This document shows, in pieces, positions 3,382 through 54,690 of a stretch of 64,000 bases of DNA. A model generated the notes under the pieces. That model ran no database searches, had not been told where the DNA came from, and saw only the letters and a list, made by a program, of their open reading frames with translations. Location of the stretch: NCBI RefSeq assembly GCF_022201045.2, contig NC_068560.1:38465001-38529000 (forward strand), given 5' to 3'. Both the position numbers and the translations under genes were made by a program. Source of the stretch: Citrus sinensis (taxonomy: Eukaryota > Streptophyta > Magnoliopsida > Sapindales > Rutaceae). Numbering within the stretch: position 1 is the first letter of the stretch; every line of letters begins with the position of its first letter.

Positions 3382-4863
3382 TCAAATAGTACCTATTCTT
3401 GATTCCTTTTCAATTTGCAACAACTCTACAACTGTTTGTTTGTCCAATTTAAATCCTGCCATCTCTGCTTCTTTGCAGACATCCCTGCACTTTGCCAATC
3501 TTCCAGAAGCCATGAAAATTCTAATCATGTCACGGTATATGTCATACGTTGGGCAGAAACCTGCTTCCTTAAGTTTTGAAAAGTATCTGATGGCCCTTGA
3601 TATATCATTTAAAGCAACAAAAAGCTTTATCACTACACGGTATGCAGGAAGATCAAAGAGACAATTAGAAGCCTCCATATTCCAAACAACAGTCAATGCC
3701 TCCCTGCATTTCTTCTCAGAAAGTCGGCTATGAATCAAAGTAGTGTACATAACCACAGTTGGATCACGTCCAGAGTGTGTGAACCAGTGAAACAAACTCT
3801 CTACAACACCAAATTTCTGAAGCCTTATACCAACTTTCATGATAGCCGTACAATCCTGCTGGCTTAAATTCAAATCATCTCTTTGTCCAAGCTCATCCAA
3901 TAATGTCATAACAAGCATGTATTTATCAGGATTTTTACCAAGCTCCAATATCAATTTTGCATAAATGCTTGGGTCCAGCATCCTCCCACCATCCTTGGCA
4001 ACCATGAGAAGCTTCCAGGCAAGCTTCAAGTTTCCGCCTTTAACGAACCCCTTGGCCGTGGCCTCCAATACACCCTTACTTGCCAAACTAACAAAATTCT
4101 CCAATTTGAATGGCACCTTCAACTCATGGTGCCTCGCCAAGACCTCAACAGTGGAAGCCAAGAGCCGATCATCTGGGAAAAGATGAGGCTGCTTCTGAGC
4201 CCAACAGAAAGTCTGCAAAGCTCTCTCAGGCAAATTCATGTGACCCAACTCTCTGACTGTAAATGACAATGAGCCCTTGCGCAAGAATCTACCACATTTA
4301 TCAAGAACTTCAGCGACATCCTTGTGGGAATCAAGTCCCTTAATATCTCTAGCTAAACTAATTAAAAAGCTCGGATTCTTGTACACTTGCTTACATATAG
4401 AAGCTCGGGAAGAGGCTAAGCAAACGCGTTTCTTTGGAGTAGGGAGCTCCAATGGCCTTAATCTGTGAGGAAGTGGAAGAGGGAGAGGCCTTTCTCTGTA
4501 TAACCTCCCAGGCTTTTGAGGAATTCTTCCCTGAAATAGAGACGATATAGCTTCTAACTCCTCTGATTCCCAAATAAAATCATTATCTGCTTCTTGTTCT
4601 TCAACAGAATCAGCTTTGATGGGGTCATATTCATCGCTCGGTTTTTTCAAGAACAAGTTAACTCCGAAGTCAGGAGGAAGCTTTGTGCGCCGTGGATTCT
4701 GAAGATTCTTGGGTAGCTTTGGGTGACGAGTTGTTGTTGGTCTCCTTCTTTGATTGGAATGTGCCATCAAAGTTGTAGTGATATTATTATTCTTCGAGAT
4801 GGGGAATATTCTATTGGATAGCACGACGGGATGCAGACTCATATATGACAACGTACAATTCAT
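3382..4863 (-). CDS. PPR/TPR-like organellar protein, single exon, 493 aa
   Basis: An uninterrupted minus-strand frame of 493 codons. The N-terminus is basic and Ser/Thr-rich, as in plastid or mitochondrial targeting peptides. It carries the phrase LPKNLQNPRRTKLPPDFG (about residues 50-67), then an acidic linker. From about residue 170 come helical pairs of PPR character, such as VMYTTLIHSRLSEKKCREALTVV and YDIYRDMIRIFMASGRLAKC. P-class PPR proteins bind organellar transcripts in a sequence-specific way. The architecture resembles Arabidopsis At2g01860 (EMB975), but I recall that match only from the N-terminal phrase and have not aligned it. The last codons (RIGTI) may read into an intron, so the true C-terminus could differ by a few residues. 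Confidence 0.85.
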   Translation of the reverse strand: MNCTLSYMSLHPVVLSNRIFPISKNNNITTTLMAHSNQRRRPTTTRHPKLPKNLQNPRRTKLPPDFGVNLFLKKPSDEYDPIKADSVEEQEADNDFIWESEELEAISSLFQGRIPQKPGRLYRERPLPLPLPHRLRPLELPTPKKRVCLASSRASICKQVYKNPSFLISLARDIKGLDSHKDVAEVLDKCGRFLRKGSLSFTVRELGHMNLPERALQTFCWAQKQPHLFPDDRLLASTVEVLARHHELKVPFKLENFVSLASKGVLEATAKGFVKGGNLKLAWKLLMVAKDGGRMLDPSIYAKLILELGKNPDKYMLVMTLLDELGQRDDLNLSQQDCTAIMKVGIRLQKFGVVESLFHWFTHSGRDPTVVMYTTLIHSRLSEKKCREALTVVWNMEASNCLFDLPAYRVVIKLFVALNDISRAIRYFSKLKEAGFCPTYDIYRDMIRIFMASGRLAKCRDVCKEAEMAGFKLDKQTVVELLQIEKESRIGTI

Positions 4864-14040: not shown

Positions 14041-17000
14041 TTCGTCACACATCTGATTCTCGGTGTTATGTTTGTTTTGCCTTTGAACATCTACTTAATT
14101 CTGCAAGAATTTAACCTTATACAATTCTTTTTAAAGTGGCCTCAATTCTCTCTCACATAGGTTATTTCTTAATTAAGAGCAACCCTTATTATGTGCTCAA
14201 ATTCTCAATGCATAAGAATCATTAAGATCATAACTCGTTCTTTCTCCTACAAGCATCATTATATCATCATAGAAATAGATACGAGGAACCCTTATAGTGA
14301 CCTGGCTTAGTCTTTAATAACTGAGTTTTCCCTTTGAACTATAACTCTATGGGCTTTAGTCTTATTTTCTTCTATGATTTTCTACTATCTCTCTGTTTAA
14401 TTCTTTGGTTAGTGAATTTACAATGTTATCCTTTGACTTCATGTACTCAATAAAAATAACTACAATAGAGAGTAATTCCCTAATGTTAATTATGTTTTTG
14501 ACGTATATATCTAGACTTACTATTATACATATTGCTTTGTGCGCTTCCAATTACAGATTGATTATCACAGTGAGTGCAAATTGATGGCACAAGTTTTGGC
14601 CAACTTGGAATATCCTCTAAGAAATTTCGCAGCTATTATACTTTTTCACCATATTTATCCAATGCAATGAATTCAGATTTTGTTATAGATCTAACTATCA
14701 CAGTTTTTTCTAGAGAATTTCCATGAAATAATTGTACCTGCTAGTGTAAACATATAGTCGTTGGTAGACTTTTAAGTCTTTCACATAAGACATCCACTTT
14801 GCTATTCATATTAATGTATCATTCTAGTACAATTGAATATCTAGTATAGTGCATCCCGTAATTTTGAGTATGTTATAAGCATATGAGTACCCTTACTATT
14901 GCTTTCTTGTGGTTAGCCCCTGGTTACTGGTATATCTACTGAACTTCCTCATTGTAAAAATTGAGTTTGATTTTATATAGCTTATTAAGTACATCAAAAT
15001 CTATATCACTCTAGAATATTCTATTAAAGGAATTTTAGTCACAACAAAAGTATCTTTGTTGAATTTACTAAGTTTTTTTTTCACATAATATAATTGACTA
15101 AGAATAAGTCCATTAGAAGTCCTTAAATTTTTTATTCTCAAGATGACATATGCTAGATCTCATGTATTTCATGTCAAATTTATACTTCAACATATTCTTA
15201 GTAGACTTAACAATTTTATCATTATTCCCAACATTGAGCATGTCATCAATGTAAAGCCATAAAATAGCTTAGCTATTTTCTATCTCTTTGATATATATAC
15301 TCATATTTCACGTTTGTTGATCTTAAAACCATTTGCCATCATCATTTGGTCAAAATTTTCTTAAAACCATTTTGCATAATCCTTGGGTCAAAATTCCCAT
15401 GCTTTCAAGCCATAATGACTTTACTAATTTACAGACCTTATTATTATTATTATTATTATTTTGGGATTTTGGAGACTGTTCCATATAGATTTCTTCATCT
15501 AAGTCCCCATTTAAAAGATTTTTTTTACATCCATTTAAGTACTTCAAGATTACATAAAGTTGCAATTGCAAGTATCATCCTAATATAATTTATTCTTGTT
15601 ACAGAAGAATATATATCAAAATCATCAAAGCCTTTTTGTTGTTTATAACCTTTAATTACAACTCTAGCCTTATATTTGTTAATTAATCCATCAACTTTCA
15701 TTTTTTCCTTGATATCACATAGGTTTGCACCCTAGATAAAGTTCCACAAACATTTAAGTATGATTTTGTAAGATAGATTTAATTTAACTGTTAATGGCGT
15801 CTTTTCACAAAGTGTCTTCTCGTGAAATTATAAATCTTCCTTGAAGCTTTGAGGTTCACTTTCCAGTAGCTCTTTTGTTACATTTAAGTTCAATCTCAAC
15901 CTATTATTCATATTCTTAAATTTCTTCTTGATCTAGGTTCTGACTATCTTCAACAATAGGCTCATGTGTTCATTTAATTGAACTCGAATCATCTTTGAAT
16001 TTACAAGTAAATACATGTTCAAAAAATTATGCATTTCCTAAACAATAGTTTTTGGTCCTATCTTCATATTTGTAGGTGGAGAAATGACCACTTTAGCAAG
16101 ACACCTCAACACTCATAAGAATTTATAGCAAGTTACTTTACCTTTCAATAATACGTAAGGAATTATCTCTTTTTCCTTTCAGGACACCTTATTTAAAAGT
16201 AATTAGCTAATAAAATCAACTTCTCTTTACATATCCTAAGGTACCCCATAACCTATCAATATTGCATTCATCATTTTTTTCAAGGTATGATTTTTTTGTT
16301 AAGCAATCCTATTAGATTGATATGAATAAGGAGTTGTGATTTGATTTATAACTCTATATTGTTAATAGAGTGATCCAAATGGAACAACATATTCACCACC
16401 ATGATTTCTTCTCAACACCTTCATTTTTTTGTTTGGTTGATTCTCAACTTCATTTTATAGAAAATAAATTTCTAAATAAATTCATCCTTACTTTTCAACA
16501 AATACACATAACAAAATTTTATATAGTCATTAGTATACATTAAAAAAAAATATTTATGCATTTCTTAATTAGAATATTATATTTATGTGAATATCTGGTA
16601 TATTCCACTTATACACTAGAAATCAAGATGGAGGAATGATCACTTTAGCAAGATACCCTCACACTTGTAAATATTTATTAGATGGCGTTGTACCTTTCTG
16701 TAATTCATAAGAGGTTTTCTCTATTTCCTTTCGGAATACTTTATTTAAAATGTAATTAAATAACTTCTCCTCACACATCTAAGATAACCCAAAACTTATC
16801 AACATTACATTAATCATTTCTTTTAAGGTATGATATTTTCTTTTAGCAATCCCGTTAGATTGAGCTAAATAAGGAGATGAGGTTTGATGTATGATTTCTT
16901 GTTGTTAGCAAAGTGATCCAAATAGAACAACATACTTACCACCATGATTATTTCTCAACTCCATCATTTTATTATTTAGTTGATTCTCAACTTCATTTTT

Positions 17001-17850
17001 GTATAGAAAAAATTTTCTTTATAGCTTTTTGTCTTTGTCTTTGTCTTTTAACAAATACATATAACAAAATTCACCCCTCGACTGAATGGATTTAAAGCAC
17101 ATATATCGTTATGTATTAGATCAAGTGGTTCAGTGCTCCTTTTAATTATTTGAGGGCATACGATTCCCTTATGTTTTGTATAAATTTGTTAGTTTTGCCT
17201 CAACACAAGATTCCCACATATGTTTTGTATAAATTTGGAATAAGGATATATGATTTATGTTAATTAATTTGTGAAAATAATTATAATTAACATGTCCTAA
17301 TCTACCATGCAATAAATCAAATGACTCAAGAAAATAAGGCTAATAATATAGATCATGAAGAAATTGCTTCGTTATTCTTAAGTTCTACCTTAGCCACAAA
17401 AATGATAATTTTCTTGTCATTATTTTTGTTGACTTATTCAATTTAAAGTCTTATAATTAGGTCTTCAATGCTCATTTCCTTTCTTTTATACTTTGGATAA
17501 CTCTTCAAATCTCAATTTTGTTTCAATTCAACAAAAATTGAATTGAATGTCCACCCCTGCCCTAAGTGTCAGACATTTTACTGATCTTACTAGTTACCAC
17601 TTTAACCATTGATGGTTGTTTGATATTGATAATATAAATACCTTCAATTATTTAATTGATATTGTTGTTACACTATACAGATTTAATTTCAATTCAATTC
17701 AATCCTAGTGTAATAAAAAGAAAATGGCAAAATCACCTTTAGTCTTTTCATTTTTACTAAACAAATTGGTGCGTTTTGAGATTCAATTTCTTATTAACTC
17801 AAACACGAGTTTGAGTATTTTATGATTAAAAGAGCTCACAGAGAATATTC
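14040..17850 (-). mobile_element. Decayed Ty1/copia LTR retrotransposon fossil
   Basis: Read on the minus strand, parts of a copia polyprotein appear in the normal order. A GAG-pre-integrase region with a LLHGRLGHVNYNYFHKL-type motif lies near 17230-17340. Integrase-core sequence (VPFGSLY, then TPYS.QSN.IA) lies near 16320-16420. Reverse transcriptase with a YIDDML box lies near 15230-15260. RNase H with CDNQSVI and a final MKSKDNIVNSLTKELNR block lies at 14370-14580. The sequence is AT-rich, carries many breaks and no longer has clear LTRs, so it is old and inactive. The integrase part is present twice (separate entry). Confidence 0.8.
16070..17085 (-). repeat. Duplicated integrase segment within the copia fossil
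   Basis: About 16070-16530 and about 16615-17085 are diverged direct copies of the same integrase-coding stretch. They share, for example, GAATGATCACTTTAGCAAGA-type, AAGCAATCC.GTTAGATTGA-type and AGTGATCCAAAT.GAACAACATA phrases at an offset of roughly 530-540 bases. Either a local tandem duplication or two related elements joined end to end would explain it. Confidence 0.65.
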
Positions 17851-20538: not shown

Positions 20539-22136
20539 ATGAAAATGGAGTGGCCAAATTTTCAACAAGGAGGAGAAATGGAGAGGCAGTTTCAGCAAGA
20601 TGGAGGGGACACTAGTAATGGGTTGTGCGTGAAAGTGATGACTGATGAACAAATGGAGTTGCTCAGGAAACAGATCGCTGTTTATGCTATGATTTGTGAG
20701 CAGCTTGTTCAGATGCACAAAGTCTTCTCTGCTCAAAATGAAATCGCTGGTCTCTTCTCTTTCTCTTTCCTCTTTTAGTGATTGTGTTTTATTTTAATCT
20801 TATTTTGATTTTTTTTGGGGGGCGTGGGGGGGGGGGGGGGCGGCTTTGGTGTTTTTCCATTAGTCATTGCAAGTTTCTGTTGCTTGATTTTGCTCCGACT
20901 TGCTTTCTTAATTTAGGTGATACGATAACCAATCAGTTTATACATGGAAAATCCCAAATCCATACTTGAATCATGCAATAATTGAATCCCAAATTAACAC
21001 GAGCATAGAATCTCTGATTGATATAATGAAGAAATGATCATCTTTAAGTGGATGTAGAACACTTGCAAATTCTTTCCTTTTTCGGCAAAGCCACTGCCTC
21101 CCCTTATATTCCGGAAAGGAAATTAGAAACTTGCTATGTCATATTCATAGGCACTAGCCCAGTTTTCTGGGAAAAAAGAAAGCATGATTATAGTATATTT
21201 TTTGGAGAAATTGGAAATTGATTTGAGTCTTTTGAAACCCTATCGAATACGCTTGTCAACGAGTATCCAATTGCTTTTGCTTCAGCAGACTTTCCGTTCT
21301 GTTGCACCATTCACTAGTTTAGCTACTTATCCCATCAAAGTCTTGCTATTATTCTCGTGATTCATTTATCCAATCAAATTCTACTAGGACCTTGCCGTAG
21401 GCCCGCAAAATTTTGAGGCCTTTTTTGTCTTGTAGGAATGAGAATGGGGAATCCATACTTTGATCCCTTTGTGGCATCTGGCAGCCAGAAGCTCACTGCC
21501 AGGCAACGGTGGACCCCGACACCTGCACAGCTCCAAATCCTTGAGCATGTTTACGATGAATGCAAGGGGACTCCTCGCAAACAGAAGATCCAGGATATGA
21601 CCGCTGAATTGGCAAAACATGGCCAAATTTCTGAAACAAATGTGTATAACTGGTTTCAGAATAGGAGAGCCCGTTTAAAGAGAAAGCAATCAGGTGTGGT
21701 TCCAAACAATGCAGAATCAGAAGCAGAGACAGTGACACATGCTGAATCCAGGAAGCAAAACCCGGAAAGCATCCAGTCATTGGAGGATTCAGCACCACCA
21801 CCCAGGGACGAAGATATCTATCCTCAAAGTCCTGATTTAGGTAATAAATTTTTCTGCTTCAATGTTCTGCTCAACAAATATAAACTTATTTTCAGTCACA
21901 TGTAAGTTAAGATTCATAGGCAGTTTTTGTTGCATGAGAGGTATGCAAAATTTCTGTTTTTGATCCTTGTTACTTATACTGATGTCAATTGGGCGCACCC
22001 TCATACAAATGAGCAAAAGATTTCTGAAACAATCTGGGGTTTTTGTGTAGGGATTGACCAGATGATTGGTAAGATGGAAATTCCCGGAAGCTTCAGTTTT
22101 CACTGGCAGGTAGACCGATATGACATGCTTGGATGA
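20539..22136 (+). CDS. WOX13: WUSCHEL-related homeobox protein, WOX13 (ancient) clade, 3 exons, 233 aa
   Basis: Exons are 20539-20749, 21436-21840 and 22051-22136, GT-AG and in phase. I chose the ATG that gives [10 protein letters not shown] because WOX13 proteins begin with MEW. An in-frame ATG exists upstream at 20482 but adds only Lys-rich leader. The conserved N-terminal block [20 protein letters not shown] (residues 28-47) is diagnostic of the clade. The homeodomain spans about residues 90-155 ([19 protein letters not shown], then [17 protein letters not shown]), with the WOX-type long loops. WOX13-clade factors are nuclear transcription regulators acting in root, fruit and callus or regeneration programmes. 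The last exon ([18 protein letters not shown]) is a clade-typical tail. A GT inside it (CAG|GTAGAC at 22109) could give an alternative 3' end. Arabidopsis AT1G20700/AT1G20710 (WOX14/WOX10) sit at the matching position in the gene block. Confidence 0.9.
20817..20843 (+). repeat. G-rich tract in WOX intron 1
   Basis: Almost pure G with two short C/T breaks, close after the first splice donor. It could form a G-quadruplex in RNA or DNA, or be only a slippage tract. Confidence 0.8.
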
Positions 22137-22828: not shown

Positions 22829-25800
22829 TCATAAGGCCATGTTAGAATATGCAATCCGGCTCTCCATTAGGAACCCCGGCCTTTCTTTGGTAGTCTCAGC
22901 TGCAGGATTGTGAAAGCTGAATTTCAGATTTATGGCGGGATAATGCCCTGTGATCAAAAGCTGCAAGCATTTTATAAATTATTTTACCTTCGATTTTGTG
23001 GACCTCCACCCTCCTGAATCTTCCAGTATTGGAGAATAAGAAAATTTTTCTATGCAACTGAAAGCAGCGACTTTATCCATGGCTGAATGAGTAATTGGTG
23101 ATGAATCCTGAAATCATACTAAAGTTGTTACCAGGAGGAGAGGGAAAAGCCATAACTTCAAGCCAACTTGGCACTATGACAAGTAGAAAAATGATGCACA
23201 ATGAGAAAATAAAATAAGGAAACAACATAGCAAACTAACCTTGGCCTCTGACTTGAATTTTCCAGATTCAGGAATTCTAATTTCCAGACGATCCAAGTAA
23301 AACAATATCTACACATAAGGCGAAGTTAGAGAAGCAACCCATTATGTGACAAATTGCAAAAACAATAAGATTTTGCATGAAACCTACTTTGTTAAGTAAC
23401 TGAAAGTTCAATGCATTGCTTGCCACTATCTGAACGCCAAGACAGTTGCTGGGGCTACTGCAGAAGGGGCAAAAAAGGGTATTATATACACATCCATCCT
23501 CTTCACACCATATGCCCTGTCCTGAGGCACCTCCAAAAGACTGGTTGGTGAGTAGCTGATCAACTGATGAAATGTCAGTCATGATAACAGGTATGCTTGT
23601 TACATTTGCACACAGTTCCTGTCTTTGTTTCAGAAGAGATACTAAGTGAGCTTTAGCAGATGAAGTAACTGAGCACCTAACATATAGATGATTCTCAGGA
23701 AGACCTAAAGGGCTCCTACAGAGTGAACATGAAATTTGTAAAGTCTTGTCCATAACTGGAGTAGAGGACAAATGTGATTCAGCACAATTATTTGACGTTT
23801 TGGATTTGTTTTTCACATAATTGGTTTCCGAATTAAATTCAATTCTCCGATTTGCTTCTCTGCTTGCCATTAACATAAGGTCAACTGAAGGTGAAACCAT
23901 GGTTTTCCTCCTTTTTTGGGTATGTGAATTAACACTCGAACTCAAAGACGAATCTCTTTCTGGTGGCAAATTGCTGGTGTCTCCAGTGACTTCTTTTTCA
24001 GGAGTGACTACCATCTCAGGCTGGGCGCTGGAAGGGACTCGGACCGGATTTGTCAAAGACTGCGAATGGACTGATAATTGATCTGGAGATTGTGTAGATG
24101 CTTGAAATATGGTTGAACTAGAGTTCCCATCCTTAGATAAGGATCCAGGACTAGCCATGGTATTATTATCATCCATAGCAGGGGTTTCCTTGACAAGGAG
24201 TAATTCTGGATCTTCATTGGAGAATGGCATGGATGAAGCCTCGCAGCACCTGCAGAAAAGAAAAAGTCTTATAACCCACACAAAGTAATCATTGCAGTTT
24301 AAATCATGTGGCAAGATATTCAAAAGAAGCCACCTATAAACTTTACCAAAAAACAATTGCTTAATCCAAGGACTTGAAACACATTGATACTATATAGAAA
24401 TATTTAACAAGGTTCCCATGCTTACCTTGAACTTTTCTGCAAACTGCATTGTGTGTTGATATAATCTTTGCAGCTACTGACTCTATCTAGCTGGACAAAT
24501 TCCTGAACTTCAACCTCATCTAACAAGTTCAGCCCGGGAAAAGAGTCATACTTCACTGAAGAGTGTAGCTTCTGTCCAGAATTGTCATAACTGTTCAGTT
24601 TCTTGTTTTCTTTCCTTGTTGACCCTTTGCTTGAATCAATAGAATGATTGTTTTTATCGTTCATTCTTTCCAGGTCAATATATTCTATGCAGCTGTTGTT
24701 CTGATCAGTTTGCAAAGATGTCTGAACTTCAAAATTACCTTGAGACTTCTGATGGGAAAAAGGGTCATACTTGCTTATAGATTGTACATTCTGTCCAGAA
24801 TGATCAGACTTGTTAAGTTCCTGAGTATTCTGTTTTGTCACCTCTTTGCATTGATCCATAGAAGAGACATGGTCCACATCGTTGTCAGAATTTTCTAAGC
24901 CATTAAACATTTTCTTGCCAACCCAACCCTGAGAGCAAGTTTTGGCAGGAAAACCAATTAGTTCATCCACTGAGTTATCCATATAAAGAAAAGAAAAGTC
25001 TAGTGATACTAGAGAAAGAAATGGTAAAAGATGGGACCTTGACATCTCTGAAAAAAGACTTTAAACCCTCTAGTGATGCGTCAAAGCTATCATACTGTTT
25101 AATGGATTTCCTTAGCCACTTAGAAATATGAGCTCTATTCCTTTCCTCTTGAAAGCGCTCATCTGCTTGCCAATAAAATGTGGCATTATAATCTCATTGA
25201 CAAGGGATTTGAGCATCTCTATTAAAGAGAACAAAGTGGGATTTACAAATATATGAAATGTGAAGATTAATACAAATTTAAGGAAACAACTTGACCTGAG
25301 GTAGATGCAAGGCACAACATGAACAAATAATTCAAAACAGTTACCTAATAAGATGATGGCTCCATAGTCAAACCTATGTCTTATGCAGCGTCCTACAAAA
25401 GGAGTAAAATGCAGTACAAACAATAGAATCATCAAATGATGCCAAGGAAAAATAAGAAGAAAAAATTTGTCTGTTATATGTAAAAACCACCCAGCAAAAC
25501 CCAGTGGCTGACTATAATAATAAAATCACCCCACAAGATAATAGACAAAGTGCAATGCTTGACGCATTGCTTAGCATACCTATAGCTTGATTTAGAGCTC
25601 GAAAGGCTTGGTTGCAGTACCACTCATTACCACTTAGAAGATTTTTTGATGATCTATATGTATCATTATATTTCTTCTTCAATGAAACTTGAATATCATT
25701 TCTGGTAAGAAATTCACAGGAATCAGTCCCTGTGACTTGCAAAATTACATAATGATCTTGTTAGGAAAAAAAAAAAAAAGAACAGGTAAGTATTCTCACA

Positions 25801-28800
25801 TGTTTGGAAATGGTATGCCAACAACTATCTGAGAAAGTTAAGGACTTCCAAACTCATGAGAAAAAAACAATGGGAATTCTGGCAAGCATGCATACAATTT
25901 AATTTAATGCAACTCAAGTTGGAGTCCCATTGCCCGTTATATTGGCCAAGTTAATGTTGAGTCCAAGATATTATTACAACCAATTTCTTTCCATTTTTCC
26001 AAAGTTGGCCAAAGTGACATCACAATCCTAATCCAAAATTATGCAAATTAAAAAGCAGAACTCTTGGCCCAGAAAATTTAAAGAGGAAAAAGGATACAAC
26101 CACTCGAGCATTATCATCGCTGAAGTCAATTCCTTCTGAAACCTGCAAACAAATATAGCAATTTAGACATTTAGTAAAATACAAAATGCAGATTGAACAA
26201 AAAATCAACACATAATGCATCCGCAACCGTATGATAATTGTCATATGACATAAAACATAAATTTCACACCTTTCCACGGCAAACTGCAAGGAAACTGGCT
26301 CCTTTCTTATTAGCATTTTCCTGAGACTCAATTGTGTTTAAGTCATTATTGCCTTCTCTCTTAACTCTTTTCTTTCTCACAACAGCACATTTACTGCCTT
26401 GTGAAATTGAGTTGTAATAATGCTTCAAAACAATCTCAAAGTCTTCCTGGCTTCCCCCTTTTGGCTCTGCACCAACAACCAAGACAATAAGCATAAGACT
26501 CCAACTAAATAGTAGCCAAGATAATTCCAGCAAGAACAACAAAGTAGAATAATTGCCATGTAAAGATAACTTCAAAATCTATGCAAAAAGGCTAAAAATT
26601 GTGAAACAAGACAAGGAAAACAACAAAGTTAATATAGAAATGAAGAATGTTTTCTCAGATAGCATAAAAGATGTGCTGACCCACAAAAAGAGGTTTCTTT
26701 GCATTAAGTCGAGACCATTGGCCTGTTTCACGCCAACGATTGCACAGTTTCTCCATCAACTTATAACTAGGGAAGAATACAAGAGAGCCACCAGGAACAA
26801 CGTTGCATATTTCCTCTATAGATTTGCCAAGGGCATCCTTCAAAACAATATATGTACAACCAATAATTTATTGAACTATAAAAGAGGAGACCACTCTCAG
26901 ACAATCAAAATCAATGTGACAAAAAGCAGAAGATACCTGAAAAGCATACCCATCTGCAGTTTTATAACTTGCATTCAATGGATAATTATCTGGACCAGTG
27001 GAGATTACAGAAGTCAACACCTGCAAAACAGTTGATGGTCCATAACTGCAATAGTAGTATAACAAACCAAAACCAATTAGCAGAGAGATGGAGGAAAATG
27101 GCATTCATACCTGCAAATCAACATCGATGACATGCGGAGCCTCCAGACAAGTTCCGAATTGAACTCCAAGCTCAGAAGAGAAGGAATTCATTGGTGATAA
27201 GGTCCTATTTTCAGAGAGATGAGTACTAGCGTAAAGGAAAGACGCTACTTTGGGTCATGCAATTAAAGCAAAGAGATAGTTTGTAAAAAAGGGCAAATGC
27301 ACAGCTTTTACTCAATCATATGGTATGAGACTGACCAGACATGAAAATAATATCTTGTAGTCCAACATTCAATACTAAGCAGCAGACCATGGCCAATTTT
27401 AGAAAGAGTATATCAGTCCTTATGGATATAGTGGGGAGGTATAGTGACCTCCACTTAGTTGCTCAACACATACTCATGCATTGAAGGTAGTAAACAAAAG
27501 TACAAGATGTTTCCACAATATGCATACATGCCTTGTGACTGAGGAATCAAGCAGTTTAAAATGAGCTTAGCAATCCAGATATGGCAATGTCATAGCTTAC
27601 CCCGATGTTAAAATAATAGACAAAGAAAGCTCAGCAACATCCTTGAAAACAACAGCTGGATTCAAGCACCACAAACTTAAAGTATGTGTCCAGTTTCCAC
27701 CAGGGTTTTCTGCATGGAGTATTATTCATTAACAATGCTGGCCATCAGTTTTCTCTAAACAAGAAAGCCCATGTTAAAATGGACCAACAATAACATATCC
27801 TACAACAAAAACAGTTGAACACTTGATGGCAAGTAATAATAACATATTGAGAAGGAACAGATAATAACAGAGATCAAGATTATGGAGTTCACCTAATACA
27901 ATTCAAATGTAGAGTCAATTCCATAAATGGCTTAATGCAGAAGTTCAATATAGACATTTTTTCTCTAAAAATTCCAAAAACTAACGTATATTAAGTTGGT
28001 GGATACAGTTTCTTAGAGAAACAGTATCAAGATCCCCTGATACATGAATTTTCCAATCATCTTATTAAGGAATCTTACATAGCTAGGGTTTTGGTTTGAT
28101 AATGACTGGTGCATAAACCTGTTAGGCTTTCCATCTGCTACCATAAGCCCTTAGACTGATTTTCAATCACACTTGGCCAAATAATATATTACCTATAAGA
28201 GTTTGGTCAGCAATGTCTATATAATTATTTCACAAATTCAAACCATAGATTCATAATCTATTGACTTTCATTGATGACAAAATTAAAATGACCCTTAAAA
28301 GAATTAATCAAATCATCAAGTATTGACCACTTACTTGAATCTCTTTTAATATATTTCTGTAAAGCAAGCTGATAATCAGATACATGAGAACCGTTTCTTG
28401 AGAAGAAATAGGTAAGTGAGGAGAATAACCCTGTTGCATTTTCAAAGGCAATCAGTAACAATAACAAATGTTCAATAGTTAATAAAAAAGCTGTGGGATC
28501 AGGTCACTATGACAAGAAGACTTGTACCTTCCAATGTTATGACTGACATGCCACTCAGATGAGGTAACTCTGATTCTGTGTCTGTAGCTTCTTTGATTGC
28601 CTTTGACCAAACAAAGAAAGTTTATAAACTTTGGAAGATAGTCAGAATCAAACCCCCAAAACTTTCTTAACAGTGTACCTTTGTGGCACATTCTAGCAAT
28701 ATTGGAAAGCACTGCCGTGAGATGTTAGCTTCTTGGAGTTCTCTTAAAGCTTTATCACCAGTCCAACTTCAATATAAAATGACAACAATAAGATAAAGAA

Positions 28801-31519
28801 ATGAAACAAATTTGATTTTGTTATTTACAAAATTCATACTCTAATATGAGTTACTCAAGAGCATAGTAGTGCATTTAATAATTCATTTAAAGAAACTTCT
28901 TGTATAGCTAAAACAACTGACCAAGAGAAGAAGTGCTGAAATTCCCGCTTTGCTAATGTTGCTTTCCTGCGCTCAATCCAGCCTACGAGGTCCTATACAT
29001 CCATAACTCCCACCATTGTCCAAGATCCAATGATGCAATTTGAAAGCCAGAAATTGTGAAATAAAATGACCAAAATTTACCTGGGTCATTTCAATTAATG
29101 GTTGGTAAATCATGGGATTAACAGAGCACACTTGCTCTAGTTCCATCTGCAATTCTTTCATAAGCCATAACCACTATAAGCGCCAAGAATCACAAAATTT
29201 CAAAATTACATAGGAATTTTTTCCGAACCTACTTAGCAAAACATCTTCATCAATATCCACACTACCGGCATCACGGGCAATGTCTTCGATATTGCTGAAA
29301 AAAAACAAATTATGTCTGTAAGTGTTCAACTCCAGAGATAATAAAAAATTTTAAAATCATTTACTTCTTCAGCATGACCTAAAGAACTTAATAGAAGTTT
29401 ATAGGAAAATAAGTAAATAAAAGTTGTGAAACATACTGGGCTTCATCAAGAATTAAAATGGCTCCTTTAATATCAACTTCCATAGCACCCCGAATGACAG
29501 GATTAATGATGTAGCTGTAGGGACAAAACACCAACTGCGCATCATCTGCCATGGAGCGTGCAGCATAATATGAACATCCTGAAAAATGCATAGCCTCAAT
29601 GAAATGCTTGTTGCCCAAAATTGTAGTATTTCATGTGTAGAATGAAAATATGAGATGAACCTCTAACGACTTGTCCAACATTCACCAGATCTTCAATATC
29701 ATGAACCTCATGGCAACCTCCTTTCTGAAGTGATGGGTGACCTCTGACTTTATGCACATTTCTGTTTGAAATAAAATTATTATTAGACCATACTTTAGCT
29801 TTTTCCATTAGCAGTAGCATCAGACATCACTAAGATTAAATGAGCATGTAAAAATAGAGAAATAACTTACTTAAATTGAGGACAACCCAAATTTCGATCC
29901 CCCAAAAGCAGCTTGCTAGAAAAAAAATAGTTATCATGAGAGAATGAAAGCAAAATCTTGTTGATGTGTTTGGAAAAAAAAAAAAAAAACACCACACCAT
30001 TCTTCATCAATATTCTCTTTGTCACGTACGTACTTGTTTGTGCAATAATGTTTACGCGAAGCCTGATGGGACATGAAATAGAAGTTAATAAACTCATAGA
30101 AGCTTGAACTACACCACTAGTAGGGATAAACATTTTTATTTAATATGATTTTTTTTCAGATTGCTTCATTTCATAGAGAGTTCCAAAGCAATATCAACCT
30201 CTAAAGCAATTGCTATTGGTTTCATCAATATTGACTGTCTTCCTCACTAATCACCGACAGCATTAAAATTAAAAACACTCAAATGCTAACAGATAAAACT
30301 CATCAAAGACATCAGCAAGCAATAATTTTCAGTCTATAATTTCTGGAGAAAGAACAAGGACAGAATATGTAAAATGTAACTATAGTCATGGGTGTTGAAT
30401 GGATGATCTGAACAAGAGCCAAAGGACTCCATAAAGCCCAGTGCTAAAACAAACCTAAAACAAATAGATTATAGTCATGGGTCATTAATATAAGGATGTA
30501 TTAAAACATACCAACACTGCCATTGGCACCCGATAAGCAGTTTTCTTGTATTCAGAAATCACTTGAGAAATTTGTGAATGTGTCCTCCTAGTGTGAACAG
30601 AAAACACACAAAACCATTAATATGTGCAAATTCTTAATTAGCATCCATAAGAGTAAAAACTTTTTGCACAGAAATTACAAAGATCAAATGGTGTCCAGTA
30701 TCTTGCGCGCTTGGCCTCACTCTTTCCCTTTATGAATCTCACATAATTATTACTGGCAAGCAGGACAGGTTTGATGAACACAGTGAACTCAATCTATTCA
30801 CAAACTACAATCTCTTAAAACATCAGAAACACCATGACTTAATTATCACAGCTTAATAAGCGTACCTAAAAGTAAGATTATATCAAAATTTAACTTAATA
30901 TAAGATATAAACCGTCAATTAAACAGATACAACAAACATATAGTAACTCGACAAGATAAAACTCACGATGCATAAAATATTGTAGGCGTCATCTTTTTCT
31001 TCACATTCTTGTTGTTCATCGCAACCTGAGCCGTCTGGCCATTTGTTGACGGCGGAATAGCTAACAACACGAAGCAATAATAGTCATGTCAATAGCAATG
31101 AAACATTTTCATTTTCTCAAGTTTTGAAAAATATTAAATCAATATGATGACGTGGCATTATTACTTGAAGGCTGTGATTCGGGGATGAATCCGCCACCAT
31201 TTGCCAGAGGATCGGTGACGGCCTCGGTATCAGGTTTGGAGTGAGAGATGTTTGCTAACTGATTCTTTAATTTACAATTCTGCTGCCAAGCGAGAGTCGA
31301 GCAAAGAAGCGAGAGAGATTTTCCAGTACCGGTCGGAGACTCGAGTAATGCGTGACAGTGACCGTCTCTTTGCGCTCGATCAAGCGTCGATATCACGCGG
31401 CACATGAACACAAGCTGCGACCCGTATGGTTGGTACGGAAACTCCACTTGGATTCCCCCGACGTGGTACGCATTCAGGGGCTTTCTGTAATTAGGGTTTG
31501 GGTTTGCCTCTGAGACCAT
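22829..31519 (-). CDS. FANCJ: FANCJ/BRIP1-type Fe-S DNA helicase, 28 exons, 1345 aa
   Basis: Exons, 5' to 3' on the minus strand: 31519-31165, 31060-30967, 30587-30512, 30062-29998, 29915-29871, 29761-29661, 29578-29437, 29294-29233, 29154-29081, 28992-28922, 28766-28679, 28600-28528, 28430-28335, 27709-27601, 27204-27111, 27020-26937, 26837-26681, 26466-26270, 26142-26098, 25828-25800, 25701-25580, 25392-25345, 25162-25038, 24928-24426, 24249-23388, 23308-23240, 23107-22988, 22960-22829. All phases join. Core features: Q motif region (27-35), Walker A SPTGTGKS (61-68), five cysteines of the Fe-S region (182, 197, 208, 228, 247), DEAH box (290-293), TSGTLSPMNSF, CRGKVSEGIDF, and motif VI QAIGRCIRHR (724-733). 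FANCJ is a 5'-3' superfamily 2 helicase that removes D-loops, crosslink intermediates and G-quadruplexes in the nucleus. A low-complexity linker (about 785-1110) separates the core from a Cys-rich C-terminal module (about 1115-1265). Confidence 0.93.
23240..23762 (-). other. Mis18/Yippee-like paired-CxxC module in the FANCJ C-terminus
   Basis: Residues about 1115-1265 contain SCSLCRSPLG (Cys1126, Cys1129), a further LYVRC (Cys1144), then EEDGCVYNTLFCPFCSS (Cys1205, Cys1212, Cys1215) and NCLGVQIVASN, followed by a helix-like LLNKILFYLDRLEI. Two CxxC knuckles, with PLG after the first and LGxxI/V after the second, are the layout of the Mis18/Yippee zinc fold. Human Mis18 proteins have CxGCRRPLG and GCVLETLCCAGC...LG at the corresponding places, as I recall them. 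This is seen directly as a motif pattern. The fold assignment is inference. Confidence 0.55.
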
Positions 31520-34866: not shown

Positions 34867-35039
34867 AAATCTTAATAAAGGGCATTGGATGCCTTGGCCC
34901 AATCAAAAGTCCAGAACGGTCAATAGTAATCAGCCCATATCACATTTTCATCATCACGGCGAACGTGCTTTAACAAACCTCTTAACAATGGCGTTTGCAT
35001 TTCTGAGGCTCACTAGCGAAGCTTTCAACAGTTCCTTTC

Positions 35040-36716
35040 ATGGCGTTTCTTTCGCGGTTTTACAGAACCAGGTACCCTTTATCCTCCCTAAGCTCGTCAT
35101 TTTCACTGTTTTCATTTTCAACTTCAGTTCGGTCAAACTTGTCATACAACGAACTGTTATCGAATCAAAAGAAGAATATGTCAAGCCTCGACGAACATCA
35201 CGTTCTCAAGGAACTATCAGATTTATTTCAAATTTCTAGTCATAATTCATTTCCAAATGTATATAAAGAGAGTCGTAGTAATTCAGTTAAACGAATAGAC
35301 AGCAGCAGGGCAGTTGACGAGTTTTTATTACCCGAGGAGAGACTACGAGGGGTTTTCCTTCAAAAGCTGAAGGGTAAAGGCGTAATTGAAGATGCTTTAT
35401 GGAATGTGAATGTGGATTTGAGTCTTGACGTTGTTGGTAAAGTTGTAAATAGAGGGAATTTGAGTGGGGAAGCGATGGTTTTGTTTTTTAATTGGGCAAT
35501 TAAGCACCCAAACGTAGCTAAAGATGTCAAGAGTTATAATGTGATTGTTAAAGCATTGGGGAGAAGAAAGTTTTTTGATTTCATGTGCAATGTTTTGAGT
35601 GATATGGCTAAGGAAGGCGTAAATCCTGATTTAGAGACTTTATCCATTGTGATGGATAGTTTTATCAGGGCCGGTCAGGTTTATAAAGCTATACAAATGC
35701 TTGGGCGCTTAGAAGATTTTGGATTGAAATTTGATGCTGAATCTTTGAACGTTGTTTTATGGTGTTTGTGTCAACGATTACATGTTGGTGCTGCGAGTTC
35801 GTTGTTTAACTCAATGAAAGGGAAGATTTTGTTTAATGTAATGACGTATAATATTGTCATCAGTGGGTGGTCAAAACTTGGTCAAGTTGTTGAAATGGAG
35901 AGAGTTTTGAAGGAAATTGTAGCTGAAGGTTTTAGTCCTGATAGCTTAACTTTCAGTTTTCTTATTGAGGGTTTAGGTAGAGCTGGTAGAATTGATGATG
36001 CCATTGAGGTTTTTGATACTATGAAGGAGAAAGGCTGTGGGCCAGATACGAATGCTTACAATGCTGTGATTTCTAATTACATTTCTGTTGGAGATTTTGA
36101 TGAATGTATGAAATACTATAAGGGCATGTCAAGTAATAATTGTGAGCCAAATATGGATACATATACCCGATTGATTTCTGGGCTCCTCAAATCCCGAAAA
36201 GTTGCTGATGCACTTGAGGTTTTTGAAGAGATGCTGGATCGAGGGATTGTTCCCTCCACGGGGACTATAACATCTTTCCTTGAACCTTTGTGTAGCTATG
36301 GTCCACCTCATGCTGCGATGATGATGTATAAGAAAGCAAGGAAAGTTGGGTGCAAACTATCCCTTACAGCTTATAAGTTATTGCTCAGGAGGCTGTCTGG
36401 ATTCGGGAAATGCGGAATGCTGCTAGATTTATGGCACGAGATGCAAGAAAGTGGTTATCCTTCTGACGGGGAAATTTATGAATATGTCATTGCCGGACTT
36501 TGCAATATAGGTCAGCTTGAAAACGCTGTTCTTGTTATGGAGGAATCTTTGCGTAAGGGTTTTTGCCCAAGCAGGCTTGTTTATAGCAAACTTAGTAACA
36601 AACTACTTGCTTCAAACAAATTAGAGAGTGCTTATAACCTATTTCGGAAGATTAAAATTGCTCGTCAAAATGATTATGCTCGGCGGTTATGGCGTTCTAA
36701 GGGGTGGCATTTTTAA
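35040..36716 (+). CDS. P-class pentatricopeptide repeat protein, single exon, 558 aa
   Basis: An intronless frame of 558 codons. The first 40 residues ([20 protein letters not shown]...) are Arg/Ser/Phe-rich without acidic residues, a typical mitochondrial targeting peptide. From about residue 160 come roughly ten PPR units of 35 residues, for example [80 protein letters not shown] and [21 protein letters not shown]-class PPR proteins bind single-stranded organellar RNA and stabilise or process it. I recall At5g43820 as similar, with moderate confidence. An upstream ATG at 34988 opens a different frame that overlaps the start and runs to 35239, and could act as an overlapping uORF if transcription starts above it. 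Confidence 0.92.
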
Positions 36717-49805: not shown

Positions 49806-51839
49806 CTCTCTTTGTGATACTGAAAGCCAATGTCTTGTACATTTACTGCTACATGGAAGTGTCATGAATTGCCAAGTGCTCTCATTGTTCTTTGGGAACT
49901 CATGCTCTGCAATACCAAAACCAGCAAAATGTTTGTGATCCCAAAGATAAATGAAATGATGAGTTGAGTGGTGACATTCGCGGCACTGTGATCTTCATCA
50001 GCAACTAGTCCTTCACCAAGATTTTCTCCAGTGCATTATGTTAAACGAGGTTTTTTCAGCTCACAGTTAATGTGTAGTTGATATGACTTGATGATTTACT
50101 TATGAACCATCATTTGCTGACCATATGTAGACTTTCAAAAGCACACCATTATTAGTTATTTTTCCTAGGAGTTCATCATATTTTATCACTGTCAACATGT
50201 GTGATACTCCAAGTTTTCTCTTGAATTGTATTAATAGTCAAATACTTACCACTATATTTGGGCCCTTTTTAACTTTGAAGCTATATTGTTTTATCTTGTA
50301 CTTTAATAACTTTTTGTAGGGTATGTTTTGCTTGTTTTTTAATTTGTTTCTTATTTGATCACGCATATAGGGTTTTGATACAACAGGACATGATTTGGAA
50401 TGTTGTGCGTAACACACCCCAATCATGTCTTACCATGTGGGACTTTACACACTAGATGTGAATTGTCATTATCTAATAAAGATCTCTTATTTTAATAAAG
50501 GAAAAGATAAATTTAAAAAATGAAGTGTATTTTTTTTATTAAAAAAATTACTATGTATATATTAATTCAGTAATGAAAATATTTTTATTTTAACAAAATG
50601 AGAATATTATTAATAGATAAGAAAACATAAATTTCGATATATTAATAAATAAGAAAATATATTTTCTTATATATTAAAATTTATAAATATATTCGAGAAT
50701 GAAGGTAAAAGGTATCTTTAGATTGTATTTATTTTAACTTATATTTAAATTTAAAAAAAAAAAAAGAAGAAGACTTACAAAACAGTGGAATAAATGGATG
50801 AAATTTTCCGACTATAAATTATATGAAAGTTAACTTGGAGAGACCCAACTAACTAATTATACCACTCGCTAACAATCACCGTGGTGTACGAAAACACAAA
50901 AACGACATCGTTTGTCGTCCGTCTGAAATTCTGAACTGTGTTCTTGACTTCTTGTCCTGTCATCTTCAGAGAGATATTTATTATTTATTTTAGTTTGAAG
51001 TTTTTTTTTTGGGTTTTTGATAGGACTAAACAGCTGTTTTCTTTTGTTTGCTCGAACATCGTTGGGGCTTTGTAGTGGGGCCCACTGCTCTCAAATCTCT
51101 CGATGAACAATTCTTTTCTGTTCTGTTGGTGATGTAGCTGGGAGTCAACTTTTTTACGATGGCTCGCGGTCTCGGCTTGGCTTCCCCTCAATTTTAATTT
51201 TGTTTTGTTTTTTAGCTGCAGTATCCTCATCCCTTTCGTCAACACGCGCAGAAATTCCAAAAAAGAAAAGTCTTTTATTTATTTCCTTTTTATTATTTTA
51301 ATTTTTTTCATCTCTCTTCCTATCTCAACAAGTTCGAAAAATCGAACCCAAAAGAGAAAGAATCCCTAATTCAGATGCTATTTCTATCTTTAATCACTTA
51401 ATTTAACCAAATGGCCGAAGAAGAAGTGTTTATCCGAATCCATTCCCTAGAGCAACTAAGCTAGAATTACGCTTCTGTCACAGGAGAAAGGTATGTCTTA
51501 AGTTTTGTTAACTAGAATATGATGAGCTGGATTGTGTGGTGATAAGCATCAATTTAGCTTTTTGGATTTTTATTTGTTTGATTTAAATTCTTGATAATTG
51601 ACCCAATTGATGACAATCCTTAATTTACTTACTTTATTTTTTTATTTTTTAAAATGAAGTTCTGAAGTCATATTAGCTATGGAAATTTTGAATTTTCTTT
51701 GGAAAATCTTGATCGAATTCAACTTTCCCATTTGGTTTTAATGTTCCTTTACATTTGTTGGTACTTTGATTCTTGATGCAATGGTAGATTATGATGTTAT
51801 TCTAGTGCTGCTGCAGATTTCAGCGACTGATTTGATCAG
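49806..51839. other. Spacer and 5' UTR of the U-box gene
   Basis: 49806-50450 includes the 3' UTR of the previous gene. 50450-50900 is AT-rich without genes. 51300-51490 is leader-like. A probable 5'-UTR intron lies at 51491-51816 (GAAAG|GTATGT ... CTGCAG), so translation starts in exon 2 of the U-box gene. Confidence 0.5.
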
Positions 51840-54690
51840 ATGGCTGGAAGTTGGGATGGAGGTTATGACTCTGGTAGCCAGTCAGATGGGAGCTACCACT
51901 TTGAAAGACTGCACATAGAGCCTATTTACGATGCATTTGTTTGCCCTTTAACAAAGCAAGTCATGCGTGATCCTGTCACTTTAGAAAATGGACAAACTTT
52001 TGAACGCGAAGCAATTGAAAAGTGGTTCAAGGAATGCAGGGAGAATGGAAGAAAGCCGGTGTGCCCTTTGACACAAAAAGAACTAAGGAGCACTGATCTT
52101 AATCCAAGTATAGCTTTGAGAAACACAATTGAAGAGTGGAATGCTAGGAATGAAGCTGCTCAATTAGATATGGCTCGTAAATCATTAAATCTTGGCAGCT
52201 CGGAGAGTGATATTATGCCGGCTCTGAAGTATGTTCAGTATTTTTGCCAATCAAGCCGATCAAATAAGCATGTTGTGCACAATTCCGAGCTGATACCTAT
52301 GATAATTGACATGTTAAAGAGCAGTAGCCGCAAAGTTCGGTGTACGGCTCTTGAAACCCTTCGAATCGTTGTGGAGGAAGATGACGACAATAAGGTTGGT
52401 CAAATGTTTGATCATTTTTGTGCAACTTCATTGACATATCTAGCACGGATGCACTTAGTGCCTCTTCCTTTTTCTTTGTTCTGCAGGAAATACTAGGCCA
52501 GGGGGACACTGTGCGAACAATAGTTAAGTTCTTATCTCATGAACTTTCGAGAGAGAGAGAGGAAGCTGTCTCTTTGCTATATGAGCTCTCTAAATCTGAA
52601 GCCTTGTGTGAGAAAATTGGTTCAATCAATGGTGCAATTCTTATCTTGGTTGGAATGACAAGCAGCAAATCAGAAAATCTTCTGACTGTTGAAAAGGCTG
52701 AAAAAACACTGGCAAATCTGGAGAAGTGTGAAAACAATGTGCGGCAGATGGCTGAAAATGGTAGACTGCAGCCTCTTCTTACACAAATTCTTGAAGGTAT
52801 ATTTTTCTTTTGAGAAAATAAAAAAATTAAATTTTGAGCGTTGAAATCACGGAACTGAATATGCACCATACATTTTTCTATTGAGGTTTCTTGTCCTCTC
52901 TTTCTATGATCTGCATGGTTGATGTATTTGCGGCCTGTGAGTTGTAGTTCAGTGATACATTATTTGTTTCTTTAAGTTGTTGAAACATAGCAATCATCTC
53001 CTCAAATTGTTGGTGGTAGAAGCATCTATTTAATTTTTCTTCAGTTGGTTGCAAATTTTAAAGTGCAGGTTGCCTTTTATGTTGTTAACAATCCTACAAT
53101 TGGATGGATGCAGGGCCACAAGAAACCAAACTGTCCTTGGCTGCATTTCTTGGTGATCTGGCTCTAAACAGTGACGTGAAAGTCCTGGTTGCAAGAACTG
53201 TTGGTTCATGTTTGATCAATATTATGAAAAGTGGTAACATGCAGGCCAGAGAAGCTGCTTTAAAAGCTCTTAACCAAATTTCATCTTGTGAGCCAAGTGC
53301 CAAAGTGTTGATACACGCAGGAATTCTTCCCCCTCTTGTAAAGGACCTCTTTACTGTTGGTTCCAATCATCTTCCGATGCGACTGAAAGAGGTCTCGGCT
53401 ACAATTCTTGCTAATGTTGTGAATTCAGGCCATGACTTTGATTCCATCACTGTTGGACCTGACAACCAGACTTTGGTTTCAGAAGATATCGTCCATAACC
53501 TACTCCATCTGATTAGCAACACTGGTCCAACGATCGAGTGCAAACTTCTACAGGTTCTTGTTGGACTCACTAGTAGCCCCACAACAGTCCTCAGTGTGGT
53601 CTCTGCCATCAAAAGTTCTGGTGCTACCATCAGTTTGGTTCAGTTTGTTGAGGCTCCTCAGAATGACTTGCGTCTAGCTTCCATTGAACTTATCCAAAAC
53701 CTCTCCCCGCATATGGGTCATGAATTAGCTGATGCGCTACGGGGTGCAGTTGGACAGCTTGGCAGCCTAATAAGAGTAATATCAGAAAATGTAGGAATCT
53801 CTAAAGAGCAGGCAGCAGCTGTTGGCCTTCTAGCTGAACTACCAGAGAGGGATCTGGGCCTGACACGGCAGATGCTAGATGAAGGTGCCTTCGGGTTAAT
53901 ATTCTCTAGAGTGAAAAGTATCCAGCTGGGGGAAACAAGGGGCAGTCGCTTCGTGACACCATTTCTCGAAGGACTTTTATCAGTTCTTGCAAGGGTTACA
54001 TTTGTCTTGTCTGATGAACCTGATGCCATTGCTCTCTGCCGTGAGCATAATCTTGCAGCACTCTTCATTGAGCTGCTTCAGAGCAATGGACTTGACAAAG
54101 TACAGATGGTTTCTGCAACAGCATTGGAGAACTTGTCGCTGGAATCCAAAAATTTGACAAAACTGCCCGAGTTGCCACCTTCTGGTTTTTGTGCCTCAAT
54201 CTTTCCATGTTTCAGCAAGCAGCCTGTCATAACTGGATTGTGTCGGCTGCACAGAGGATTATGCTCTTTAAAAGAAACTTTTTGTCTATTGGAAGGGCAT
54301 GCTGTGGAGAAGTTGATAGCACTTTTAGACCATACAAATGAGAAGGTGGTTGAGGCATCGTTGGCAGCACTATCTACAGTGATAGATGATGGGGTTGATA
54401 TTGAACAAGGGGTGATGGTATTGTGCGAGGCACAGGGAATCAAGCCCATTCTAGATGTATTACTCGAAAAACGAACTGAGAACCTGCAGAGGAGAGCAGT
54501 TTGGGTGGTAGAAAGAATCCTGCGGACTGATGATATAGCATATGAAGTCTCTGGAGACCCAAATGTCAGTACTGCTCTAGTTGATGCCTTCCAGCATGCT
54601 GACTATAGAACACGGCAGATTGCCGAACGTGCCCTGAAGCATATTGATAAGATACCGAACTTTTCAGGAATCTTCCCAAACATGGGATGA
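51840..54690 (+). CDS. SAUL1: U-box/ARM E3 ubiquitin ligase, SAUL1/PUB44 type, 3 exons, 813 aa
   Basis: Exons are 51840-52394, 52487-52796 and 53114-54690, in phase. The U-box covers about residues 30-105 (YDAFVCPLTKQVMRDPVTLE, then PVCPLTQKELRSTDLNPSIA). The rest is a long array of armadillo-type helical repeats, ending TRQIAERALKHIDKIPNFSG. The length agrees with Arabidopsis SAUL1/PUB44 (about 800 residues) and its paralogue PUB43. SAUL1 is a plasma-membrane-associated E3 ligase that suppresses premature senescence and cell death, targets AAO3 in abscisic acid synthesis, and is guarded by the NLR SOC3. The ARM array gives membrane association. SAUL1 is AT1G20780, next in order after the EH1 region, which supports this assignment over other PUB genes. 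Confidence 0.92.

Follow-up and report, generated by a model that had tools for sequence, protein, structure and literature searches.

A plant FANCJ helicase probably ends in a Mis18-leaning beta-tent that is absent, by sequence, from the human FANCJ chain

The window analyzed here is a 64,000-nucleotide stretch of Citrus sinensis DNA (C5:38465001-38529000). Copies of its features were searched for in the genome to which it belongs (299.7 Mb in 11 contigs), referred to below as the own genome; by eye, the genes present are such as a flowering plant would have. On the minus strand, the window contains a FANCJ-like helicase gene, whose model was rebuilt manually from splice signals. The model has 27 GT-AG introns, and the frame stays open throughout, from 31519 down to 22867 (Table 1). 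A WUSCHEL-related homeobox (WOX13-like) gene, recognized by eye at about 20540 to 22136 on the plus strand, is convergent with the FANCJ gene, with about 730 bases between the two coding ends. Broken Copia-type retrotransposon-like pieces (reverse transcriptase and GAG-pre-integrase-like), identified by eye only, lie at 15113 to 17340 on the minus strand. Long open frames are also found at 3385 to 4863 (minus strand), 35007 to 36713 (plus), 51831 to 54687 (plus), and 55885 to 57672 (minus); by eye, two of these four resemble PPR-type proteins, one a U-box/armadillo protein, and one an F-box/kelch protein.

Table 1. Positions, within the window, of the FANCJ-like gene and of the parts discussed in the text
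Feature	Position	Strand	Remarks
FANCJ-like helicase gene	22867..31519	-	28 coding exons, 1312 aa; hand-built, GT-AG introns
Helicase core, Pfam DEAD_2 (residues 148-311) and Helicase_C_2 (residues 550-761)	25107..30974	-	Many exons
Exon 25	23388..24249	-	End of the linker and most of the candidate zinc module
Exon-25 portion of the candidate zinc module, residues ~1122-1239	23388..23741	-	
First CxxC, CSLC, residues 1126-1129	23718..23729	-	Context CSLCRSPLG; compare CSGCRRPLG in human Mis18-alpha
18-residue stretch, residues 1149-1166	23607..23660	-	Helical in a low-confidence model
Second CxxC, CPFC, residues 1212-1215	23460..23471	-	Context GCVYNTLFCPFC; compare GCVLETLCCAGC in human Mis18-alpha
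Exon 26, residues 1240-1262	23240..23308	-	Gives the last portion of the PF03226 match
Exon 27, residues 1263-1302	22988..23107	-	
Exon 28	22867..22899	-	Basic terminus LRLPKKGRGS and stop

The identity of the helicase was examined with its N-terminal part. Residues 1-785 matched the Fanconi anemia group J protein (PDB 9ej9) with an E value of 1.8e-161, well ahead of CHL1 and XPD (~2e-45), and the TIGR00604 (rad3) model scored 398.7 bits. Pfam DEAD_2 was matched as well; a DEAH motif and candidate Fe-S cysteines were read by eye in the translation. Judged by sequence, the core is that of FANCJ, an XPD/Rad3-type core nearest to FANCJ, as an earlier note on this DNA had proposed from the letters alone. 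Searching the own genome with the core yielded 25 matches. The 18 on C5 all fall within the FANCJ gene itself, and the others, of which C7 has 6 and C3 has 1, show 32-69% identity across single exons. No second close FANCJ copy turned up among these 25 matches, whereas Arabidopsis has two FANCJ copies. Two regions on C7 (C7:9300042-9302474 and C7:9586754-9593451), with 37-69% identity per exon to the core, probably encode other Rad3-family helicases.

The core is followed by a linker of about 330 residues (~785-1120), for which the sole Pfam listing was an implausible phage family (E 1.8). At about residues 1049-1075 of the linker (23880-23960, minus strand), a basic KRRKT motif, possibly a nuclear localization signal, precedes VDLMLMASREANRRIEF, which looks helical by eye. 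Behind the linker come two CxxC pairs, both encoded by exon 25, and exons 26, 27, and 28 come after them. The splice signals suggest that exon 28, with the terminus LRLPKKGRGS, is the last exon; if intron 27 were left unspliced, the frame would finish with KSKVK and a stop. The two knuckles thus lie in the tail, behind the core and the linker, as described in the earlier note, and the region that it had delimited (23240-23762) takes in the whole of exon 26 together with the 3'-terminal 375 bases of exon 25, with the residue range also correct.

The order and spacing of the knuckles had further been taken as the signature of the Mis18/Yippee fold. The order agrees with this proposal, but the spacing does not. 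The gap between the pairs is 82 residues in the FANCJ tail, compared with 52 in human Mis18-alpha, 50 in Schizosaccharomyces pombe Mis18, 52 in YPEL5, and 52 in a Yippee gene of the own genome. Of the roughly 30 extra residues, whose placement is putative, at least some would belong to a predicted helix. Every beta-tent has a segment inserted after strand 2 and before strand 3 (PMC4287342), so that extra residues between the CxxC pairs of FANCJ are plausible. Shuffling also produced two CxxC pairs at a distance of 40 to 100 residues, 326 times in 20,000 for residues 952-1262 (~1.6%) and 372 times in 20,000 for residues 785-1312. Since shuffles also yield such pairs, the motifs by themselves are weak evidence.

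The tail was then compared with Pfam, for which E values count all 24,736 families. Family PF03226 (Yippee-Mis18), which the earlier note had named beforehand, has a curated cut-off of 26.6 bits. With residues 1113-1312, it was the sole Pfam family listed (16.4 bits, E 0.01). With residues 1113-1262, it was the top family (17.3 bits, E 0.0054), with Trm112p next (E 0.067), and the match spanned only positions 40-100 of the 108 in the profile. With exon 25 alone, PF03226 reached 11.6 bits (E 0.31) and Trm112p an E value of 0.04. The score exceeded 26.6 bits in none of the natural or deletion constructs, and a Pfam search with the full-length 1312-aa protein did not return PF03226 at E values up to 10. 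An exon of the own genome encoding a cereblon-like CULT domain (L007, G000:C1:3480323-3483445) was scored by PF03226 at 23.6-25.9 bits, also below the cut-off. Genuine beta-tents can thus escape the PF03226 model.

Several controls were applied to this match. Exon 26 had been placed from splice signals, with no use of homology. Its addition raised the PF03226 score from 11.6 to 17.3 bits (+5.7), and the match then ran to profile position 100. When exon 26 was replaced, none of nine constructs reached 17.3 bits: reading through the intron gave 11.9 bits and eight shuffled versions gave 11.0-14.9, the one at 14.9 bits extending as far as position 96 of the profile. Deletion in silico of the 18 residues 1149-1166 resulted in one PF03226 match that covered profile positions 3-100 of 108 and both CxxC pairs (E 0.0027), and deletion of the 46 residues 1149-1194 resulted in an E value of 0.0013 over positions 48-101 only; the scores of the two deletion constructs were 19.3 and 18.3 bits. 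Among 16 cysteine-fixed shuffles, eight of the natural sequence and eight of the copy lacking 46 residues, PF03226 was matched in none, and the best E value for any Pfam family was 0.075. Trm112p was likewise matched in none of the 16, so this control favors a zinc-binding tail rather than one family over the other. The PF03226 match is therefore weak, yet above chance, and the controls taken together favor a real relationship in sequence.

To which branch of the family the tail is closer was addressed by pairwise comparison, in which human Mis18-alpha was the closest match among the sequences compared. Its Smith-Waterman score with the tail was 53, which 30 of 10,000 cysteine-fixed shuffles equaled or exceeded. 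Mis18-beta, whose family was confirmed by search, scored 47 (43 of 10,000 shuffles), and S. pombe Mis18 alone scored 40, which was not significant (673 of 10,000). The summed score of the three Mis18 proteins, which are related sequences, was 140, and no shuffle among 10,000 reached this sum. The other 11 200-residue tiles of the FANCJ protein scored lower against each Mis18. Similarity to Yippee proteins was unremarkable, the score being reached by 187 of 2000 shuffles for YPEL5 and by 362 and 121 of 2000 for two Yippee pieces of the own genome; nor was the cereblon-like exon significantly similar to the tail (104 of 2000). The best alignment with Mis18-alpha corresponded to the second knuckle, and the likeness at the first (CSLCRSPLG versus CSGCRRPLG) was noted by eye. 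A profile made from two Mis18 sequences gave 8.1 bits (16 of 5000 shuffles), with the knuckles found as separate stretches in the correct order. These small home-made profiles were weaker than that of Pfam; one for Yippee was equaled or exceeded by 204 of 5000 shuffles, and one for all four sequences by 51 of 5000. Of the two branches, these comparisons favor Mis18 as the one nearer to the tail in sequence.

Searches for relatives of the tail gave little. In the own genome there were four matches, three of which were the same gene; the fourth (C8:18786465), with a stop and an E value of 0.49, looks like chance and was rejected as a relative. Pattern matching returned 43 stretches in genome_contigs and 17 in viral_contigs, neither of which is a plant collection, and none of these stretches was confirmed. 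According to phmmer, the tail had three matches in the PDB (E 0.7-1.4), none of them related. A single-sequence AlphaFold model of residues 1113-1239, which did not include exon 26, had a pLDDT of 38, and Foldseek with this model returned 12 matches, all with E values above 4 and none useful.

On balance, it seems reasonably probable that residues ~1122-1258, encoded by exons 25 and 26, form a zinc-binding beta-tent of the Yippee/Mis18 kind that is closer to Mis18. The fold proposed in the earlier note is thus upheld in part. PF03226 as the top family, Mis18-alpha as the nearest sequence, and the shuffle and exon-26 controls speak for it, and the scores below the cut-off, the spacing, and the preference of exon 25 alone for Trm112p speak against it.

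A different explanation is that the zinc knuckles or ribbons of the tail, whether one or two, are unrelated, for example a Trm112-like pair or an LSD1-like element at the first CxxC, and that the Mis18 likeness is convergent around the CxxC motifs. We consider this rather unlikely. The NCBIfam model TIGR01053 (LSD1 zinc finger) scored 14.7 bits over the first knuckle, below its cut-off of 15.5. LSD1 zinc fingers require a fourth Cys, and this residue is absent from the FANCJ tail. Trm112p (Pfam PF03966, cut-off 22 bits) had E values of 0.04-0.08 across the exon-25/26 constructs, also with scores below its cut-off (at most 14.3 bits), and it outranked PF03226, bar one case, whenever exon 26 was absent or replaced. 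Its silence in the shuffles, the departure of about 30 residues from the usual CxxC spacing, and the recurrence of such CxxC pairs in ~1.6% of shuffles are all compatible with unrelated knuckles. However, the Trm112p match must stretch about 22 profile positions over about 90 residues, and it gained nothing from exon 26 (E 0.04 without it, 0.067 with it). PF03226, unlike Trm112p, scores higher when exon 26 is present, and its match continues through that exon. The response to exon 26 bears equally on the possibility that the gene model is an artefact, the tail beyond the core not being translated as modeled because of an early transcript end or other splicing. Exons 24-28 were indeed defined by splice signals and an open frame only. 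Against such an artefact, exons 25-28 connect in frame through GT-AG introns, the splice into exon 26 strengthens a match to a family that had no part in placing that exon, and the exon number is similar to the 30 of Arabidopsis FANCJB (25 in AtFANCJA), the plant homologues described in PMC6550410. Taking these points together, we regard a modeling artefact as very improbable.

A more far-reaching reading would make FANCJ the missing plant Mis18, with the fused domain acting in CENH3 loading at centromeres. The leaning of the tail sequence to Mis18 fits this reading, and so does the reported situation in plants. Mis18 is described as broadly present in eukaryotes, plants excepted (PMC4287342), and Mis18-alpha and Mis18-beta as unidentified in plants (PMC9210943 and PMC13294675), in agreement with the statement of the earlier note that plants are said to lack a clear Mis18; seven genes with a Yippee-Mis18 domain have been pointed out (PMC9210943). 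In the own genome, PF03226 had at least 10 matches. Among those listed, eight are Yippee-like by eye, one is the cereblon-like L007 (confirmed), and one (L006) looks by eye like a zinc finger without relation to the family; exon 25 of FANCJ is itself not among these 10. No exon of Mis18 strength was found, the best listed PF03226 exon (38 bits) being Yippee-like, and human Mis18-alpha searched exon by exon gave nothing better than E 0.8; both searches scored the best candidates exon by exon and do not prove absence. On the other side stand the Arabidopsis mutants. The fancja and fancjb lines grow as the wild type and are fully fertile, and fancja fancjb double mutants were obtained, with hypersensitivity to MMC at the level of fancjb (PMC6550410). 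According to the same paper, FANCJB is required in crosslink repair; its title names the stability of rDNA repeats, and its main text contains no word starting with "centromer." Because fancja and fancjb plants grow normally and are fertile, a primary centromere function of FANCJ is unlikely, and the normal growth and fertility of these single mutants weigh against the role in plant Mis18 function suggested in the earlier note. The other role suggested there, the targeting of FANCJ to chromatin, is likewise hypothetical. We accordingly give the equation of FANCJ with the plant Mis18 hardly any credence. A broader version is that plant Mis18 persists at the C-terminus of FANCJ, where a dimerizing beta-tent derived from Mis18 and fused to a crosslink-repair helicase would couple the repair or replication of repeats (rDNA and centromeric arrays) to chromatin assembly. 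Although speculative, this is slightly less remote, and we still hold it to be improbable.

Returning to the preferred reading, a Mis18-leaning beta-tent at the end of FANCJ, the candidate module is compact, with about 140 residues and four cysteines. The two CxxC pairs would grip one zinc and thereby pin two beta-sheets together, and the beta-tent so formed would be tethered to the helicase core by the linker of about 330 residues. Its groove or dimer face may bind a partner, which could be a protein, a nucleic acid, or a second FANCJ. Such binding might bring the helicase to crosslinks and repeats or regulate it there, by analogy with the terminal beta-tent of RIG-I. By this analogy, the module would be a binding or dimerization unit on a long tether. 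The known roles of plant FANCJ lie in crosslink repair and in the stability of rDNA, and no domain has been assigned to its tail in the literature examined. The word "zinc" occurs once in the main text of PMC6550410, in a reference on TOP3alpha, and among the open-licence papers listed no title or abstract start links FANCJ to Mis18 or Yippee. If the beta-tent is real, it would suggest how plant FANCJ is positioned or regulated. FANCJ would then resemble RIG-I in its architecture, and plants, a group reported as without Mis18 or with none identified, would gain a domain that leans to Mis18.

Comparison with known systems places the tail as follows. The human FANCJ/BRIP1 protein is alike in its helicase core and differs at its end, the tail module remaining unmatched at E values up to 10 to the 1271-aa FANCJ chain in the PDB (9ej9). 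This plant FANCJ helicase probably ends in a Mis18-leaning beta-tent that, as far as sequence comparison can tell, the human chain lacks. With Mis18-alpha, Mis18-beta, and S. pombe Mis18 (MeDiY; PDB 7sfz, 5hj0, and 5j6p), the tail shares two CxxC pairs, and with human Mis18-alpha also CSxCRxPLG at the first pair and GCVxxTLxCxxCS at the second; its match continues into the final part of the profile. It differs from them in being about 30 residues longer between the pairs, in its fusion to a helicase, and in showing little similarity beyond the knuckles. In S. pombe Mis18, the Yippee-like domain is reported to be homodimeric and to require a cradle-shaped pocket for its function (PMC4818781). 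By eye, and based on the residue list in the same paper, R89 and P91 of the Mis18-alpha dimer interface would correspond to R1130 and P1132 of FANCJ, and V82 and D94 are without counterpart.

YPEL proteins share with the tail the Pfam family PF03226 and two CxxC pairs (in the own genome, L001-L005, L008, L013, and L014, by eye). They differ from it in that pairwise similarity is not significant, no LGWxY strand is seen by eye behind the second pair of the tail, and the gap in the tail is 82 rather than 52 residues. The CULT domain of cereblon is a beta-tent with CxxC pairs (PMC4287342), and the cereblon-like exon of the own genome, like the FANCJ tail, is under the PF03226 cut-off; the GW..F conserved after the second pair in CULT is, by eye, not present in the tail. 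The closest architecture is that of RIG-I, with its C-terminal regulatory domain, a helicase with a C-terminal beta-tent (PMC4287342); the C-terminal location is given in the Pfam name. RIG-I differs as an RNA helicase outside the XPD/FANCJ kind, and the Pfam model RIG-I_C-RD had no match on the FANCJ tail at E values up to 10. Its regulatory domain is a sensor of RNA 5'-triphosphate and activates the ATPase via RNA-dependent dimerization (PMC4287342).
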